Assembly (NCBI RefSeq): GCF_004345735.1
Contig: NZ_SLXL01000005.1
Location: 62,001 to 126,000 of the forward strand
Source: Rhodovulum adriaticum
GTDB taxonomy: Bacteria > Pseudomonadota > Alphaproteobacteria > Rhodobacterales > Rhodobacteraceae
Direction of reading: 5' to 3'
DNA: 64,000 bases
The position numbers and the translations under genes are program-made. The notes below the pieces were generated by a model, which saw nothing but the letters and a program-made list of their open reading frames with translations, had not been told where the DNA came from and did not search any database. The number at the start of each line of letters is the position of its first letter. Position 1 is the stretch's first letter. Below, in pieces: positions 4,321-63,220 of this stretch.

Positions 4321-4832
4321 GCGCTGTCCTTTCCGGGTGCGGGGCGCAGCACCTGCGCCAGCCCTTGCAGGATGGTCAGACCGGCGGCCACCGGCAGCGC
4401 GGTCTTGACCAGGTAAAGGCCACCCAGCCCCCCTGTTTCCACAGACCCTTCGCGGATCGACCAGCTATAGGCCAGATCGGGCCAGAACGCGCGGATCAAC
4501 AAGCCAAAGACCGGGATCAGAAAGATTACCAGCGCCACCGCATCGGCCCCGCGCAGATAGGCCTGCGGCAGGCGTTCGGAAATGACCTCGACCCGGACAT
4601 GGCCGCCACGGGCCAGCGTCACGGGAATGGACAGCGCCATCAGCGCGGCAAAGGCATAGGCGGCGGCGTCCTGCAATTCGATGAACCCGGTGCCAAAGCC
4701 GTAGCGCAGTACCACGATGGCCAGCACCGCGCCGGTCAGGAACAGACCGGCCACCACGCACAGCCCCAACGCCAGCCGGTCCAGCCAGCGGCAGAGGCCA
4801 AGATAGGCGGTTATGGCAGCAGATCGGCGCAT
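4317..4832 (-). CDS. TRAP transporter small permease (DctQ family)
   Basis: A 171-residue membrane protein with four predicted helices, including LALGLCVVAGLFLTGAVLAIVVL near residues 20-45 and the conserved GGHVRVEVISERLP loop of DctQ subunits. It partners the large permease, with which it overlaps by 4 bp. I chose the ATG at 4832; a GTG at 4850 in the same frame would add six residues, and neither has a strong ribosome site. A 49-bp gap separates it from the upstream dehydrogenase, so the transporter may be transcribed together with it. Confidence 0.85.
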   Translation of the reverse strand: MRRSAAITAYLGLCRWLDRLALGLCVVAGLFLTGAVLAIVVLRYGFGTGFIELQDAAAYAFAALMALSIPVTLARGGHVRVEVISERLPQAYLRGADAVALVIFLIPVFGLLIRAFWPDLAYSWSIREGSVETGGLGGLYLVKTALPVAAGLTILQGLAQVLRPAPGKDSA

Positions 4833-57515: not shown

Positions 57516-58243
57516 CAGGTTTCGTCAGTTTCGTCAGTTCCGGGCCGGGCGATCCCGAGCTTTTGACCCTCAAGGCCGTGGATCGCCTGAAACGCGCCGA
57601 CGCGGTGCTTTTCGACGATCTGTCCTCGGGGCCGATCCTGACCCATGCGCGGGCCGGGGCCGACCTTGTGGGGGTGGGCAAGCGGGCGGGCCGGGCCTCG
57701 CCCCGGCAGGACCATGTCAGCCGGTTGCTGGTGGATTACGCCGCCACCGGACAGCGCGTGGTGCGGCTGAAATCGGGCGATGCGGGGCTGTTCGGCCGCC
57801 TGGAAGAGGAAATCACCGCGCTGGAAGCCGCCGGCATCGGCTATGAAATCGTGCCCGGCGTCACCTCGGCCTGTGCGGCGGCGGCGGTGGCGGGCCTGCC
57901 GCTGACCCGGCGGCTGACCGCGCGGCGGGTGCAGTTCGTCACCGGCCATGACGTAACCGGCCAGTTGCCCCGCGATATCGACCTGGCGGCCCTGGCCGAT
58001 CCGCATGCGACCACGGTGGTCTATATGGGGCGGCGCACCTTTCCCGACCTGGCCCGCGCGCTGATGGAGCGCGGCCTGCCCGGCGACACCCCCGCCCTGC
58101 TGGCCGAGGGCGTGACGACAGAGGCCCAGACCCTGACCCGCAGTACCGTGGCGGGGCTGGCGGCGGGCGCGCTGGATACCGGATCGCCCGCGCCCGCGCT
58201 TATCCTTTACGGCCCCCTGGTAGGGGAGGCGGGCGATGGATGA
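57512..58243 (+). CDS. cobA: Uroporphyrinogen-III C-methyltransferase
   Basis: A 243-residue SUMT, which methylates uroporphyrinogen III to precorrin-2, the branch point into B12. SSGPGDPELLTLKAVDRL near 9-26, VVRLKSGDAGLFGRLEEEI near 83 (SUMT usually RLKGGDPFxFGRG), YEIVPGVTSACAAAA and TVVYMGRRT. The box near 83 departs from the SUMT consensus (SGDAGLF) but other motifs hold; with all other cob methyltransferases assigned, cobA is the remaining call. It overlaps cobB and cobF. Confidence 0.88.
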   Translation: MTGFVSFVSSGPGDPELLTLKAVDRLKRADAVLFDDLSSGPILTHARAGADLVGVGKRAGRASPRQDHVSRLLVDYAATGQRVVRLKSGDAGLFGRLEEEITALEAAGIGYEIVPGVTSACAAAAVAGLPLTRRLTARRVQFVTGHDVTGQLPRDIDLAALADPHATTVVYMGRRTFPDLARALMERGLPGDTPALLAEGVTTEAQTLTRSTVAGLAAGALDTGSPAPALILYGPLVGEAGDG

Positions 58244-58982
58244 ACTGCTGCTGATCGGTATCGGCACCGGCAACCCCGACCACCTGACGCTACAGGGCGT
58301 GGCGGCGATCCGGTCCGCCGATGTGATCCTGATCCCGCGCAAGGGCGCGGACAAGGCCGACCTGGCCGATCTGCGGCGCGAAATCTGCGCCGGCATTCTG
58401 GGGGACGACACCGCCCGTATCGTGGAATTCGATCTGCCCCGCCGCGCGTCCGAGGGCGATTACCTTGCCAATGTCGAGGATTGGCACGACGCCATCGCGC
58501 AGGCCTGGACCCGGGCCATTGCCGCCACCCCCGGCCCCGCACCGCGCAAGGTGGCGCTGCTGATCTGGGGCGACCCGTCGCTGTATGACAGTTCCCTGCG
58601 CATCGCCGGGCGGCTGTCGCCCGCGCCGCAGATCACCGTCCTGCCCGGCATCACCGCATTGCAGGCCCTGTGTGCCGCCCACCGCATGCCCCTGAACCGG
58701 GTCGGAGCCCCCTTTCTGGTGACCACCGGGCGGCGGCTGCGGGAAAACGGCTGGCCTGCGGATGCGGATACGGTTGCCGTGATGCTGGACGGCAGTTGTG
58801 CCTTTACCACGCTGGACCCGGCCGGGCTGTCGATCTGGTGGGGCGCCTATCTGGGCATGCCGAACGAGCTGACCCTGTCCGGCCCGCTGGCCGACACCGC
58901 CCCCCGGATACAGGCGCTGCGGGACGAGGCCCGCGCGCGCCATGGCTGGATCATGGACATCTATCTGCTGCGCCGGGGCTGA
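58236..58982 (+). CDS. cobF: Precorrin-6A synthase (deacetylating)
   Basis: A 248-residue methyltransferase specific to the aerobic pathway: LLLIGIGTGNPDHLTLQGV near 4-22, VILIPRKGADKADLADLRRE, VALLIWGDPSLYDSSLRI near 108 and VLPGITALQALCAAH. It methylates C-1 and releases the C-20 fragment as acetate. It is the last gene before a 612-bp gap that contains a minus-strand riboswitch. Confidence 0.96.
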   Translation: MDELLLIGIGTGNPDHLTLQGVAAIRSADVILIPRKGADKADLADLRREICAGILGDDTARIVEFDLPRRASEGDYLANVEDWHDAIAQAWTRAIAATPGPAPRKVALLIWGDPSLYDSSLRIAGRLSPAPQITVLPGITALQALCAAHRMPLNRVGAPFLVTTGRRLRENGWPADADTVAVMLDGSCAFTTLDPAGLSIWWGAYLGMPNELTLSGPLADTAPRIQALRDEARARHGWIMDIYLLRRG

Positions 58983-59142
58983 TGGCCCCGTCCGCCGCAG
59001 CCTTGGCCGGATCGTTTTCGCCACTGGCCGGCGGCGTGCGCCGGGGCGGTTCTGCGCGCGGGTCCAGATCGGGGCGCGGCCCCAGGCCCGGCACCAGCGT
59101 CAGCGCCAGTGCGGCGGTCATCATATTGCCGTGAAACAACAT
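58951..59142 (-). CDS. Possible 63-residue protein downstream of the B12 riboswitch
   Basis: A short frame beginning MLFHGNMMTAALALTLVPG, that is, a hydrophobic start that could be a signal or single membrane helix, followed by a Pro/Arg/Asp-rich tail with no recognised domain. GGAACCGAAAG precedes the ATG. It is the first frame after the minus-strand B12 riboswitch, 146 bases away, and its last 32 bases overlap the end of cobF on the other strand. It does not resemble CbtB, the small cobalt-transport protein often found after such riboswitches (no His-rich end). It may be a real small protein, a remnant, or not translated. Confidence 0.35.
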   Translation of the reverse strand: MLFHGNMMTAALALTLVPGLGPRPDLDPRAEPPRRTPPASGENDPAKAAADGAISPGAADRCP

Positions 59143-59288
59143 CTTTCGGTTCCTTTCATCGGTGGCGGCAAAAGGGCCGCACGCAGAAAGGACGAAGGGG
59201 GATCGAAGGCACGAACAGGCCACGCAGGCCGATCCGGGCCAGACGCGCACCCCGGCGTCCGGTGGAGACCGCGCGGATTGCACGCGGG

Positions 59289-59470
59289 CGATTGGCAGGT
59301 CTCCTGGCTGGCGGGTCGTTGCCTGGCTGGCCTTCCCGGGGTGGTCCCAGTGGCATACCTCAGCCGTGCTACCGCTTACAGTTGCGGGGGCAGCCGCGGC
59401 GTTGCACCTGTCGGTGCGCACCGCGTTCCCTTTTCACCTCTGCCCGCCGGGCGCGCAGAGGAACCAATCG
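59289..59470 (-). promoter_or_regulatory. Cobalamin riboswitch 1 (minus strand)
   Basis: Read on the minus strand, a perfect P1 stem CGATTGG (59464-59470) / CCAATCG (59289-59295) encloses AAAAGGGAA, GGTGC...GCACC, CTGCCCCCGCAACTGT (the B12 box core) and CCAGGAGACCTGCC, the conserved landmarks of the AdoCbl riboswitch in order. The orientation is opposite to all flanking cob genes except cobK. It therefore cannot control cobQ to its right; it controls RNA running leftwards, over the 63-residue frame and antisense to cobF. Confidence 0.95.
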
Positions 59471-59594
59471 CATCGCCATCTTTCCGGGCACGGCCAGCCC
59501 CGTCAACCTTGTTGGCCGGGGCGTGACCGCGCGCCGCGCATGGCTTGACACCTTGGCGCGCGGGCCGCATTCCCATTGGTTCAGGAGATGCGCG

Positions 59595-61169
59595 ATGACC
59601 TACGACCTGCCCCCCGACGACGCCCCGCCGCCGATGCCGGACATCTCGGTCCCGATCCTTGATCCGGCGCCGCGCCGCGCGGGCCGGGCGCTGATGATCC
59701 AGGGTACCAGTTCCGATGTCGGCAAAAGCCTGCTGGTCGCGGGGCTGTGCCGGGCCTATGCGCGGCGGGGCCTGCGCGTGGCGCCGTTCAAGGCGCAGAA
59801 CATGTCCAACAACGCCGCCGTGACGGTGGACAGCGATCTGCCCCCCGGCCCCGACGGCACCGCGCCCGGGGGCGAGATCGGGCGCGCGCAGGCGTTGCAG
59901 GCGCGGGCGGCGGGGCTGCCACCGTCGATCCACATGAACCCGGTGCTGTTAAAGCCGCAGGCGATGGTCGGCTCGCAGGTGGTGCTGCGGGGGCGCGCTT
60001 TGGGCAACTGGCCCGCGCGGCATTACCACGGGCTGAAACCCCTGCTGCTGCCCGCGGTGCTGGACAGTTACCGCCGGGTCGCCGCCCAGGCCGACCTGGT
60101 GCTGGTCGAGGGCGCAGGCGCGGGCACCGAAACCTGGCTGCGCCATTGCGACATCACCAACATGCGCCTGGCCGCCGAGGCCGATTTGCCCGTGGTGCTG
60201 CTGACCGATAACGACCGGGGCGGGGCGATGGCCGCCATGGTGGGCAGCTGGCTGCTGCATACCGAGGACGAGCGCGCCCGCATCAAGGGCTATATCATCA
60301 ACAAATTTCGCGGCTATTTCTCGCTTTACGAACCGGCCTGCGAAACGATCACGCAAACCACCGGCTGGCCGCTGCTGGGGGTGGCCCGCTGGTTCGACGC
60401 GGCAACCCAGTTGCCCGCCGAGGATGCGCTGGCGCTGGAACGGCCGCAGGCGGGCGGCGGGGCCGGACTGGTGATCGCGGTGCCGCAGATCGCGCGGATG
60501 GCCAATTTCGACGATCTGGACCCGCTATCGGCCGAACCCGGCGTCGATCTGCGCTGGGTCCGCCCCGGCCAGCCCATCCCGGCAGAGGCCGATGTGGTTC
60601 TGCTGCCGGGGTCCAAGACGACACGGCCCGCGCTGGACTCGCTCCGCCAGAATGGCTGGGATATCGACATCGCCGCCCATGTGCGGCGCGGCGGGCGCGT
60701 CGTGGGGATTTGCGCAGGCTTCCAGATGCTGGGCCGCGTGGTGCGCGACCCCGACGGGATAGAGGGGGCGCCGGGCGAAACGCCGGGGCTGGGCCTGCTG
60801 GATATCGAAACCACCATCGGCGGTGACAAGAAACTGATCGAGATCGACGCAACGGATACGGCCAGCGGCGTGCGGGTCACCGGGTACGAGATGCACATGG
60901 GCCGGACCGATGGCCCCGGCCTGTCGCGCCCCTGGCTGCGCCTGAACGGGGTTGATGAGGGCGCGGTTTCCCCCGATGGGCGGGTGATGGGCGGCTATGT
61001 TCACGGCATCTTTGGCGCAGACAGCTATCGCCGCCACTGGTTGCAGGCGATGGGCGGGCGGGCCTCTGGCCTGGATTACGAGGCGCAGGTCGAGGCCGCG
61101 TTGGACGCGCTGGCCGACCAATTGGAAACCGATCTGGATCTGGACGCGCTGTTGGCGCTGGCGACATGA
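59595..61169 (+). CDS. cobQ: Cobyric acid synthase paralogue 1 (with 13-residue insertion)
   Basis: A 524-residue CobQ-type amidotransferase. After a 30-residue Pro/Asp-rich extension comes IQGTSSDVGKSLLVAGLCRA (36-55), VAPFKAQNMSNNAAVT, then an insertion of about 13 residues (VDSDLPPGPDGTAP) before GGEIGRAQALQARAA. VEGAGAGTETWL, DNDRGG and INKFRG follow. The GATase domain has Cys373 in GICAGFQMLG and His470 in GGYVHGIF. It amidates the b, d, e and g side chains of the corrin with glutamine and ATP. AGGAG seven bases before the ATG. It overlaps a second cobQ by 4 bp. Confidence 0.88.
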   Translation: MTYDLPPDDAPPPMPDISVPILDPAPRRAGRALMIQGTSSDVGKSLLVAGLCRAYARRGLRVAPFKAQNMSNNAAVTVDSDLPPGPDGTAPGGEIGRAQALQARAAGLPPSIHMNPVLLKPQAMVGSQVVLRGRALGNWPARHYHGLKPLLLPAVLDSYRRVAAQADLVLVEGAGAGTETWLRHCDITNMRLAAEADLPVVLLTDNDRGGAMAAMVGSWLLHTEDERARIKGYIINKFRGYFSLYEPACETITQTTGWPLLGVARWFDAATQLPAEDALALERPQAGGGAGLVIAVPQIARMANFDDLDPLSAEPGVDLRWVRPGQPIPAEADVVLLPGSKTTRPALDSLRQNGWDIDIAAHVRRGGRVVGICAGFQMLGRVVRDPDGIEGAPGETPGLGLLDIETTIGGDKKLIEIDATDTASGVRVTGYEMHMGRTDGPGLSRPWLRLNGVDEGAVSPDGRVMGGYVHGIFGADSYRRHWLQAMGGRASGLDYEAQVEAALDALADQLETDLDLDALLALAT

Positions 61170-62620
61170 CCGCGCGACGGTTGATGGTGCTGGGCACCGG
61201 GTCGGATGTGGGTAAAAGCCTGCTGGTCGCGGGGCTGGCGCGCGCCTATGCCCGGCGGGGGCTGAAGGTCGCCCCCTTCAAGGCGCAGAACATGTCGAAC
61301 AACGCCGCCGTGACGGCGGATGGGGGCGAGATCGGGCGCGCCCAGGCGTTGCAGGCGCGCGCGGCGGGGGTGCCGCTGTCGGTGCACATGAACCCGGTGC
61401 TGCTGAAGCCCGAAACAGACGTGGACGCGCAGGTGGTGGTGCAGGGGCGTGTGCTGGGCCGCTATTCGGCCAGCGCCTATCAACGGCTAAAGCCAGAATT
61501 GCGGCAGGCGGTCTGCGACAGCCTGAACACGCTTTCGGAAACGCACGACCTGGTGCTGGTCGAGGGCGCGGGCAGCGGGGCGGAACGCTACCTGCGGCCG
61601 CAGGATATTTCCAACATGGGGCTGGCAGAGGCGGCGGATTTGCCCGTCCTGCTGGTCGCCGATGAATCGCGCGGGGGCGTCACCGCCGCCGCCATCGGGC
61701 ACCACCGTTTGTGGACCGCCACCGAACGTGCCCGCGTGGCCGGTGTGGTGGTGAACAAGTTCCGCGGCGACCCCGCCGTGTTTGCCCCCGCAGCCGATGA
61801 CATCCGGACCGAAACCGGCTGGCCCGTGCTGGGGCTTGTGCGCTGGTCGCAGGCCGCCCGCGCCCTGCCCGAAGAGGATTCGCTGGGCTACGGGCGGGCG
61901 CGCGGTGCGGGCGGCGGGTTGGTCATCGCGGTGCCGGAACTGCCCCGTATGGCCAATTTCGACGATCTGGACCCGCTGGCCGCCGAACCCGGGGTGGAGC
62001 TGCGCTGGATTCGCCCCGGTCAGCCGATCCCGGCAGAAGCCGATGTGGTGCTGCTGTTGGGCTCCAAGGCCACGCGCGCCGCGCTGCAGGCCCTGCACGA
62101 TGAGGGCTGGGAGATCGACATTCGCGCCCATCTGCGGCGTGGCGGGCGTGTCGCGGGGCTGTGCGCGGGGTTCCAAATGCTGGGCCGCGTGGTGCGCGAC
62201 CCTGATGGGGTAGAGGGACCGCCAGGTGAAACGCAGGGGCTGGGCCTGCTGGAGGTCGATACCACCATCGGCGGGGGAAAGCGGCTGGTGGAAATCGTTG
62301 CCACGGACTCGATCAGCGGGGCGCGGGTGGCGGGCTATGAAATGCACATGGGGCGTACGGACGGTCCCGGCCTGTCGCGCCCCTGGCTGCGCCTGGACGG
62401 TCGGGCCGAGGGTGCGGTGTCACCCGATGGCCGCGTGATGGGCTGCTACCTGCACGGCCTGTTCGGCGCGGACGACTTTCGCGCGCATTGGCTGCGGGCC
62501 ATGGGCGCGGTGGCGGGAGAGCAGAACCACGCCGCCCGGCTGGACGCGGCGCTCGACGCGTTTGCCGACGATATAGCGGCCGATCTGGACCTGGACGCGC
62601 TGGCCGCGCACGCGCGCTAG
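61166..62620 (+). CDS. cobQ: Cobyric acid synthase paralogue 2
   Basis: A 484-residue CobQ, the usual family length, directly after and overlapping paralogue 1. LGTGSDVGKSLLVAGLARA (9-27), FKAQNMSNNAAVTADGGEIG (no insertion), VEGAGSGAERYL and VVNKFRGDP. The DxDRGG motif is DESRGG here, so the second Asp is lost, and PGSKxT is LGSKAT. GATase Cys333 (GLCAGFQMLG) and His430 (GCYLHGLF) are kept. Long DNA stretches match paralogue 1 (for example around 60498 and 61950), so this is a tandem duplication. Whether both are active, specialised or form a pair is open. Confidence 0.88.
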   Translation: MTARRLMVLGTGSDVGKSLLVAGLARAYARRGLKVAPFKAQNMSNNAAVTADGGEIGRAQALQARAAGVPLSVHMNPVLLKPETDVDAQVVVQGRVLGRYSASAYQRLKPELRQAVCDSLNTLSETHDLVLVEGAGSGAERYLRPQDISNMGLAEAADLPVLLVADESRGGVTAAAIGHHRLWTATERARVAGVVVNKFRGDPAVFAPAADDIRTETGWPVLGLVRWSQAARALPEEDSLGYGRARGAGGGLVIAVPELPRMANFDDLDPLAAEPGVELRWIRPGQPIPAEADVVLLLGSKATRAALQALHDEGWEIDIRAHLRRGGRVAGLCAGFQMLGRVVRDPDGVEGPPGETQGLGLLEVDTTIGGGKRLVEIVATDSISGARVAGYEMHMGRTDGPGLSRPWLRLDGRAEGAVSPDGRVMGCYLHGLFGADDFRAHWLRAMGAVAGEQNHAARLDAALDAFADDIAADLDLDALAAHAR

Positions 62621-62764
62621 CGGCACAGCCTGCCGATCCCCCCCGCGACGGAATCCGCCCGCGCCCGCGTTTCATAGGTATGCTGCCCGGTCCGTGGACT
62701 GCAGGAGCAAGGGGGTCGGGGGAGCGCGGCCCTCCCATACCGATCGCAAATGGAAGGACATCCC

Positions 62765-63220
62765 GTGAAAACACCGATGATCGCCGCTGTTGCCATTGCC
62801 CTGGGACTGACCGGGGCAACCGGTGCCGGTGCGCAGGGTGCGCCGCTTTTGAAATGCCGCCCCGGCGACACGAACTGTCAGCAACAGCAACAGCCGGGCA
62901 GCGCCGCCCAACCCGGCCAGAAGACGAAACCCGCCGCGACCCAAGACCATTCCGCAAAGGCAAAGGCACCCGGCACAGCCGCCCCGCGCGCGCAGGCCGA
63001 AACGCGCGTGCCCAAGGGAAAGGCCGCCCAGCCTGACAGCCCCCGCGTGGGCGACAGCGCCAAGCATGCCAAGCATTTCCAACGGGCCGAACGCAGCCGC
63101 TTGCCCGAACCGCCGCAGGGGCGGGAATACCGGGTGGTGAACGACAACCTTGTGCTTGTGGACAAGGAAACGATGCGGATCGTCGCCATCGTAGGGGTGC
63201 TGAGCGCGCTGTTCGACTGA
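62765..63220 (+). CDS. RcnB-like periplasmic protein
   Basis: A 151-residue secreted protein. GTG start chosen for GGAAGGACATCCC just upstream and for the signal peptide MKTPMIAAVAIALGLTGATG plus AGAQG. The middle (residues 30-100) is low-complexity Gln/Pro/Lys/Ala-rich with CRPGDTNCQ at its start (two Cys). The last 40 residues, LPEPPQGREYRVVNDNLVLV then DKETMRIVAIVG, fit the RcnB domain of periplasmic nickel/cobalt homeostasis proteins. Next to the cob genes a cobalt-related role is attractive but inferred. 144 bp separate it from cobQ; that gap shows no clear signal. Confidence 0.65.
   Translation: MKTPMIAAVAIALGLTGATGAGAQGAPLLKCRPGDTNCQQQQQPGSAAQPGQKTKPAATQDHSAKAKAPGTAAPRAQAETRVPKGKAAQPDSPRVGDSAKHAKHFQRAERSRLPEPPQGREYRVVNDNLVLVDKETMRIVAIVGVLSALFD

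Follow-up and report, generated by a model that had tools for sequence, protein, structure and literature searches.

A complete cobalamin riboswitch lies on the minus strand between cobF and cobQ of Rhodovulum adriaticum, opposed to both genes, and no B12 or cobalt gene follows it on its own strand apart from the first 20 codons of cbiK. The locus raises the question of what this riboswitch controls, or once controlled. The first-pass annotation had recognized the riboswitch and its orientation, both of which were confirmed, and had considered an antisense RNA directed at cobF and cobA, a new small B12-regulated protein, and a relic of cbtBA or another lost operon. In what follows, the window is the whole stretch of DNA that was analyzed (64,000 nucleotides of contig NZ_SLXL01000005.1), and its genome is referred to as G000. 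The features of the locus are given in window coordinates; the 13 intact copies used for the alignments are described below.

58236..58982, plus strand: cobF, the convergent neighbor (TIGR02434, 318.6 bits)
58951..59142, minus strand: chimeric 63-codon frame consisting of the cbiK start, then non-cbiK sequence, then antisense of the end of cobF (open reading frame and homology)
59083..59142, minus strand: cbiK (DUF4198) from its start codon to codon 20, MLFHGNMMTAALALTLVPGL, covering only the signal-peptide part (aligned with 13 intact copies)
59143..59276, minus strand: leader or expression platform, with a hairpin at its end that sequesters the Shine-Dalgarno sequence (RNAalifold, 13 intact leaders)
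59277..59483, minus strand: cobalamin riboswitch aptamer RF00174, orphaned (119.2 bits; 38/39 helix pairs kept)
59478..59506, minus strand: remains of the ancestral promoter region (alignment to intact copies)
59595..61169, plus strand: cobQ, the divergent neighbor (NF001989, 584.3 bits)

The aptamer and its surroundings

The RF00174 match at 59483-59277 (minus strand) covered the full model (positions 1 to 189), and its score of 119.2 bits compares with a gathering score of 31.5; the E value of 2.6e-29 rules out a chance match. The first 13 bases of the aptamer fall outside the interval originally annotated (58951-59470). The covariance model score is inside the range of nine intact copies (110.5 to 132.8 bits). 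Of 39 helix pairs, 38 form in the window aptamer, versus 34 to 39 of 38 to 39 in intact copies, although the helices were placed by hand on the window's own sequence, which favors it in these counts. Compensatory changes on both sides of the helix, from C-G to U-A, were found in P1 (59466/59293; C-G in 13 of 13 intact copies) and in P2 (59457/59441; C-G in 12 of 13). Judged from its sequence, the aptamer looks to be in working order. It is one of eight RF00174 matches in G000.

A number of further genes surround this site. Two cobQ-like genes lie in tandem at 59595-61169 and 61166-62620 (plus strand), each with CbiA and GATase_3 domains; ten further genomes of the genus have such a pair, and contig C2 carries a third cobQ that is more distantly related. 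At 62750-63220 (plus strand), between cobQ and a second riboswitch, a 156-aa secreted-looking protein is encoded, with a match to RcnB (nickel/cobalt regulator) that is below threshold (24.3 versus 25.9 bits). The second cobalamin riboswitch (63905-63721, minus strand, 120.3 bits) is directed towards the gene for a small protein rich in cysteine (PF04071, 63579-63241), and the same pairing of riboswitch and PF04071 gene occurs in G003.

The same site in related genomes and intact copies elsewhere

Searching same-genus genomes with 58951-59620 recovered a block homologous to the aptamer and leader that extends a short way further. A cobF match at an E value of ≤1e-30 was present in 13 of 16 such genomes, that of the window included, while G002, G011, and G012 had no match at this threshold and are outside the 13. 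Mapping by tblastn showed that in 10 of the 13 (G001, G004, G005, G006, G007, G008, G009, G013, G014, and G015) a riboswitch-led cbiK-cbiM-cbiL-cbiQ-cbiO operon converges on cobF and diverges from cobO. The aptamers of seven of these operons (G001, G004, G007, G008, G009, G013, and G014) were covered by an Rfam scan, and those of G005, G006, and G015 are known from alignments. In eight of the ten genomes cobO is followed by cobQ, which is found elsewhere in G007 and G013; in the window, cobO is absent in front of cobQ. In the ten genomes, 5 to 129 bases lie between the end of the cbiO match and that of the cobF match, so read-through onto the antisense strand of cobF would be nothing new at this locus.

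The remaining two genomes with cobF carry different remnants at this site. In G003 the gap between cobF and cobQ is approximately 490 bases and contains a 107-aa minus-strand frame (L051, 2494-2171), residues 26 to 105 of which match positions 101 to 180 of the 180-position NikL profile with 60.5 bits, below the cutoff of 100. By eye, the frame starts like cbiL; it has what looks like a signal peptide, fused to the C-terminal portion of NikL. This mini-cbiL could be either a relic or a subunit that still works in shortened form. At the G010 site, pieces of cbiO were identified in three frames, with an adjoining frame that harbors a DDE transposase domain. No riboswitch match was found in the G003 gap or at the G010 site. 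All three cobF genomes that do not have an intact operon at the site (those of the window, G003, and G010) thus keep some piece of it, and from their sequences the remnants look like a redundant operon in decay. The relatives had been expected to show an antisense arrangement without a sense gene if the antisense reading held; instead, ten have a sense operon and G003 and G010 have other remnants.

To place this arrangement more widely, 80 cobF loci from named genomes were scanned with a strict riboswitch regular expression and tblastn. Among the loci listed, a convergent cbi operon beside cobF was found only in Rhodovulum (L057 and L104), but known aptamers escaped the expression (two of the three in L039 and the single one in L051) and several loci end shortly after cobF, so that other genera may also have the operon. 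A lone cbiO-like match was located about 5 kb from cobF in L085.

An intact copy is also present in the genome of the window itself. Positions 59102-59439 are 87% identical over 345 aligned columns to G000:C3:312350-312690, where the riboswitch leads an open operon of cbiK (DUF4198, PF10670), cbiM, a NikL-family subunit ("cbiL"), cbiQ, and a cbiO-like ATPase. This C3 block is flanked by a divergent cobO on one side, and cobN adjoins cbiO on the other. The cobO/cbi block (L054 and L039; G000:C3:305612-311348) has CRISPR-cas genes on one side (Cas7, Cas5, and Cas3 by Pfam) and cobN on the other. On contig C2 of G003 the same block lies beside a region 77% identical to the cobN region, inverted relative to the block. 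Two more distant homologs of cbiK were found in G000, on C8 and C15. A second cobO/riboswitch/cbiK copy was identified on contig C28 of G008 (L055, 6249-6457); apart from a weak cbiM-like match, the rest of the operon is absent in this stretch. The C28 copy groups with the G007 operon with a support of 100, which hints at transfer between species.

Together, the ten operons, the C3 copy, the G003 C2 copy, and the G008 C28 copy make up the 13 intact copies in the alignments. The window sequence aligns with them from the TTGAC(A/G) at 59506 through codon 20 of cbiK, a region that includes the aptamer, leader, Shine-Dalgarno sequence, and start codon, and similarity stops there. Relatives carry intact forms, G000 itself has an intact copy, and the homology ends inside cbiK. 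On these grounds we consider it highly likely that the element is the 5' stub left by a B12-repressed operon for a cobalt ECF transporter (cbiK-cbiM-cbiL-cbiQ-cbiO), formerly situated between cobF and cobO-cobQ and transcribed towards cobF. The idea of a relic was thus supported insofar as a lost operon is involved, one that is intact at this site in 10 of 13 genomes, but that operon is cbiKMLQO; cbtBA was rejected as the remnant aligns with cbiK (DUF4198).

A plausible sequence of events is that an ancestor duplicated or moved the cobO/riboswitch/cbi block to beside cobN. The old copy would then have been redundant and may have been deleted from about cbiK codon 21 through cbiO, almost to the cobF stop, with cobO probably also lost from in front of cobQ. 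The RNA that remains still looks foldable and would hide its Shine-Dalgarno sequence when B12 binds; the product gated in this way would now be a 63-residue peptide with a nonsense tail, and any transcription continuing into cobF would be by-product read-through, equally possible at the ends of intact operons. A tree of the 14 leaders was too weak to place the stub (with G003_C2 at a bootstrap value of 41), so both duplication and transfer are possible. As G000 and G003 are not sisters in a cobB/cobA/cobF tree, their shared cobN-side location may reflect one event or more.

Condition of the stub and competing readings

The 63-codon frame extends from the ATG at 59142 to a stop at 58951. Its first 20 residues are the signal-peptide part of cbiK, the other 43 are not derived from cbiK, and the frame has no Pfam match up to an E value of 1. 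The stub and G003_C2 begin cbiK with ATG, and the other 12 intact copies begin with TTG. For the 100 bases at 58983-59082, no convincing homolog was found in 16 loci: the best E value was 0.015 over 43 bases, from 281 weak matches at an E value of ≤10 of which the best 6 were inspected, and under other scoring, among the matches listed, one in L041 reached 72% over 68 bases (E value of 0.001). Given the GC richness of the DNA, we read these weak matches as chance. The frame of at most 63 residues reported in the first-pass annotation exists, but it is not the longest downstream: a mechanical search also yields a minus-strand frame of 244 aa with a GTG start (59024-58290), opposite cobF, which we judge to be a shadow frame of GC-rich coding DNA.

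RNAalifold of the 13 intact leaders predicted a terminal hairpin just 5' of the start codon (CCTTTC/GAAAGG and GCGGC/GCCGC), and 37 of the 38 consensus leader pairs are kept in the stub. When single sequences were folded, the hairpin appeared in the stub and G004, while the C3, G003, and G008 leaders partly fold otherwise. A simple consensus scan, blind to Rho-dependent stops, found no terminator-like sites in 58150-59700 (shuffled sequences had a mean of 0.6). With a predicted Shine-Dalgarno sequestor and no terminator found, the switch looks translational, and B12 should therefore act on translation of the truncated frame and not on RNA that reaches cobF. Upstream, a -35-like TTGACG is located at 59506-59501, where all 13 aligned intact copies have TTGACA; the -10-like stretch at 59483-59478 is our own placement. 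The promoter region is 31.6 to 51.4% identical to the intact copies, and a consensus scan of 58150-59700 found no sigma-70-like site.

Signs of decay in the stub are mixed. To compare decay with constraint, columns invariant among the 13 intact copies were examined by leave-one-out counting, in which G005, G015, and G008_C28 were dropped as near-duplicates. In the aptamer, the stub differs at 9 of 134 such columns, versus 0 to 2 of 135 to 137 in each of the 10 intact copies counted. Four of the nine changed columns lie in helices, and pairing there is kept or improved. Changes in the stub aptamer include those at 59400 and 59323 and a one-base gap. The promoter stretch of the stub differs at 2.2 of 9 invariant columns (0 to 1 in intact copies). 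No excess was seen in the leader (2.2 of 79 columns changed, versus 0 to 7 of 77 to 84 in intact copies), and none of the 27 invariant columns in the cbiK codons is changed. The start region of the C3 cbiK (L039, about 4651-4720) is itself unusual, with a signal peptide two codons shorter and 9 of 36 otherwise invariant columns changed.

A model in which the same number of substitutions was placed at random lost about 9 to 11 pairs on average. With 20,000 runs for each of four assumed ancestors, the reported probability of keeping 38 pairs was 0.0000; it was 0.0000 to 0.0036 when the number of helix changes was fixed. The intact pairing thus requires either a recent truncation or continuing selection. 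Across the 20 cbiK codons, the stub shows five synonymous and two nonsynonymous differences from G004, five and seven from C3, and four and six from G003_C2; the comparison is short and is less clear against C3 and G003_C2 than against G004. Conservation of cbiK codons would be of no consequence to an antisense RNA, and we counted it, like the nine changed aptamer columns, in favor of recency. The simplest reading is that most of the divergence predates the loss of the operon and that the truncation is recent.

Retention of the stub by selection as a stand-alone B12-responsive RNA, either damping cobF from the antisense strand or serving as a B12-binding sponge, is very improbable in our assessment. 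If it were true, that selection would have left its mark in the intact helices and the two compensatory changes, and a functional stub would represent a riboswitch co-opted as a free regulator. A residual B12-dependent function of the stub is unlikely.

The reading put first in the first-pass annotation was a B12-controlled antisense RNA, in which the stub transcript enters the 3' part of cobF and tunes cobF/cobA by B12, as at pocR of Listeria. The geometry fits, as the riboswitch is on the minus strand and 3' of cobF; the aptamer is structurally intact, with compensatory changes; and a significant antisense tendency of cobalamin riboswitches is reported in a survey of antisense-acting riboswitches (PMC9943018). 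Nevertheless, we regard this reading as very unlikely. The same riboswitch serves, in 10 of 13 genomes, a sense operon that merely converges on cobF, and the present arrangement appears to have arisen by loss of that operon. A terminator-type platform was not found, and B12 acting through a translational-looking switch would have no direct means of halting the RNA ahead of cobF. None of the other 12 cobF-bearing genomes of the genus was found to have a stub of this type, and conservation of the promoter region is among the lowest in the stub. The logic would also be odd, as a B12-synthesis gene would be opposed at low B12, when it is needed. It had been proposed that a decayed riboswitch core would speak against the antisense RNA; the core was found to be intact, but this does not rescue the reading because a recent truncation explains an intact core equally well. 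In our reading, the evidence points to a recent truncation and not to an antisense switch of the Listeria type; that the element is a device dedicated to antisense control is very improbable.

An origin of the stub by insertion or duplication of part of the C3 operon into the cob locus, and not from a full operon at this site, is most unlikely. The stub leader is closest to the C3 copy (90.3% identity, the highest of the 13 copies, with the next best at 82.1%), but the first 20 codons are nearer to G004 (86.7%) than to C3 (66.7%), a complete operon lies at exactly the same place and in the same orientation in ten relatives, and G003 and G010 retain other pieces of the operon at the site. A new B12-regulated protein of 63 residues is extremely unlikely: the start codon, Shine-Dalgarno sequence, and sequestor are intact, but residues 1 to 20 belong to the cbiK signal peptide, the frame has no Pfam match, its middle has no convincing DNA homolog in the 16 loci compared, and its end is the antisense of the cobF stop region.

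Comparison with known systems

Among the papers listed in literature searches, no title or abstract start concerned this locus. The closest known system to the stub of the cobalt transporter operon is the riboswitch-led cbiK-M-L-Q-O operon itself: the aptamer, leader, cbiK start, and place in the cob cluster are shared with the ten same-genus genomes, while the window lacks everything in the operon past about codon 20 of cbiK and has no cobO before cobQ. At pocR of Listeria monocytogenes, as described in PMC9943018, high B12 induces a Rho-independent terminator that prevents the antisense effect. The stub resembles that system in having a B12 aptamer 3' of a gene on the opposite strand (cobF at 58236-58982, plus; riboswitch at 59483-59277, minus). 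It differs in that the search for a terminator found none, that its leader looks built to mask a Shine-Dalgarno sequence, and that in relatives the target lies in sense orientation. As pocR depends on the B12-induced terminator, its mechanism is not transferable to the stub.

The survey counts 1,185 antisense versus 98,082 sense riboswitches across all families, and 190 versus 10,769 for cobalamin riboswitches, with 292 antisense cases of all families inferred to be meaningful (PMC9943018). Where transposases, pseudogenes, or small hypothetical genes lie opposite, it proposes a fortuitous arrangement, with the true target to be seen in related genomes. The stub is like these riboswitches that face the wrong gene after disruption of their context, in that the genuine target can be recognized from gene order in close relatives. 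It differs in how the context was disrupted: in the cases given in the survey, by an inserted transposase, a pseudogene, or a probably misannotated small open reading frame, and in the window by deletion of the target, with a complete copy elsewhere. The element at this locus falls in that class. The locus provides a clear case of an apparent antisense riboswitch arising by operon loss, in which G000 still has an intact copy and the site is eroded in two other ways in relatives, and surveys that call antisense riboswitches by position alone need a synteny check first.
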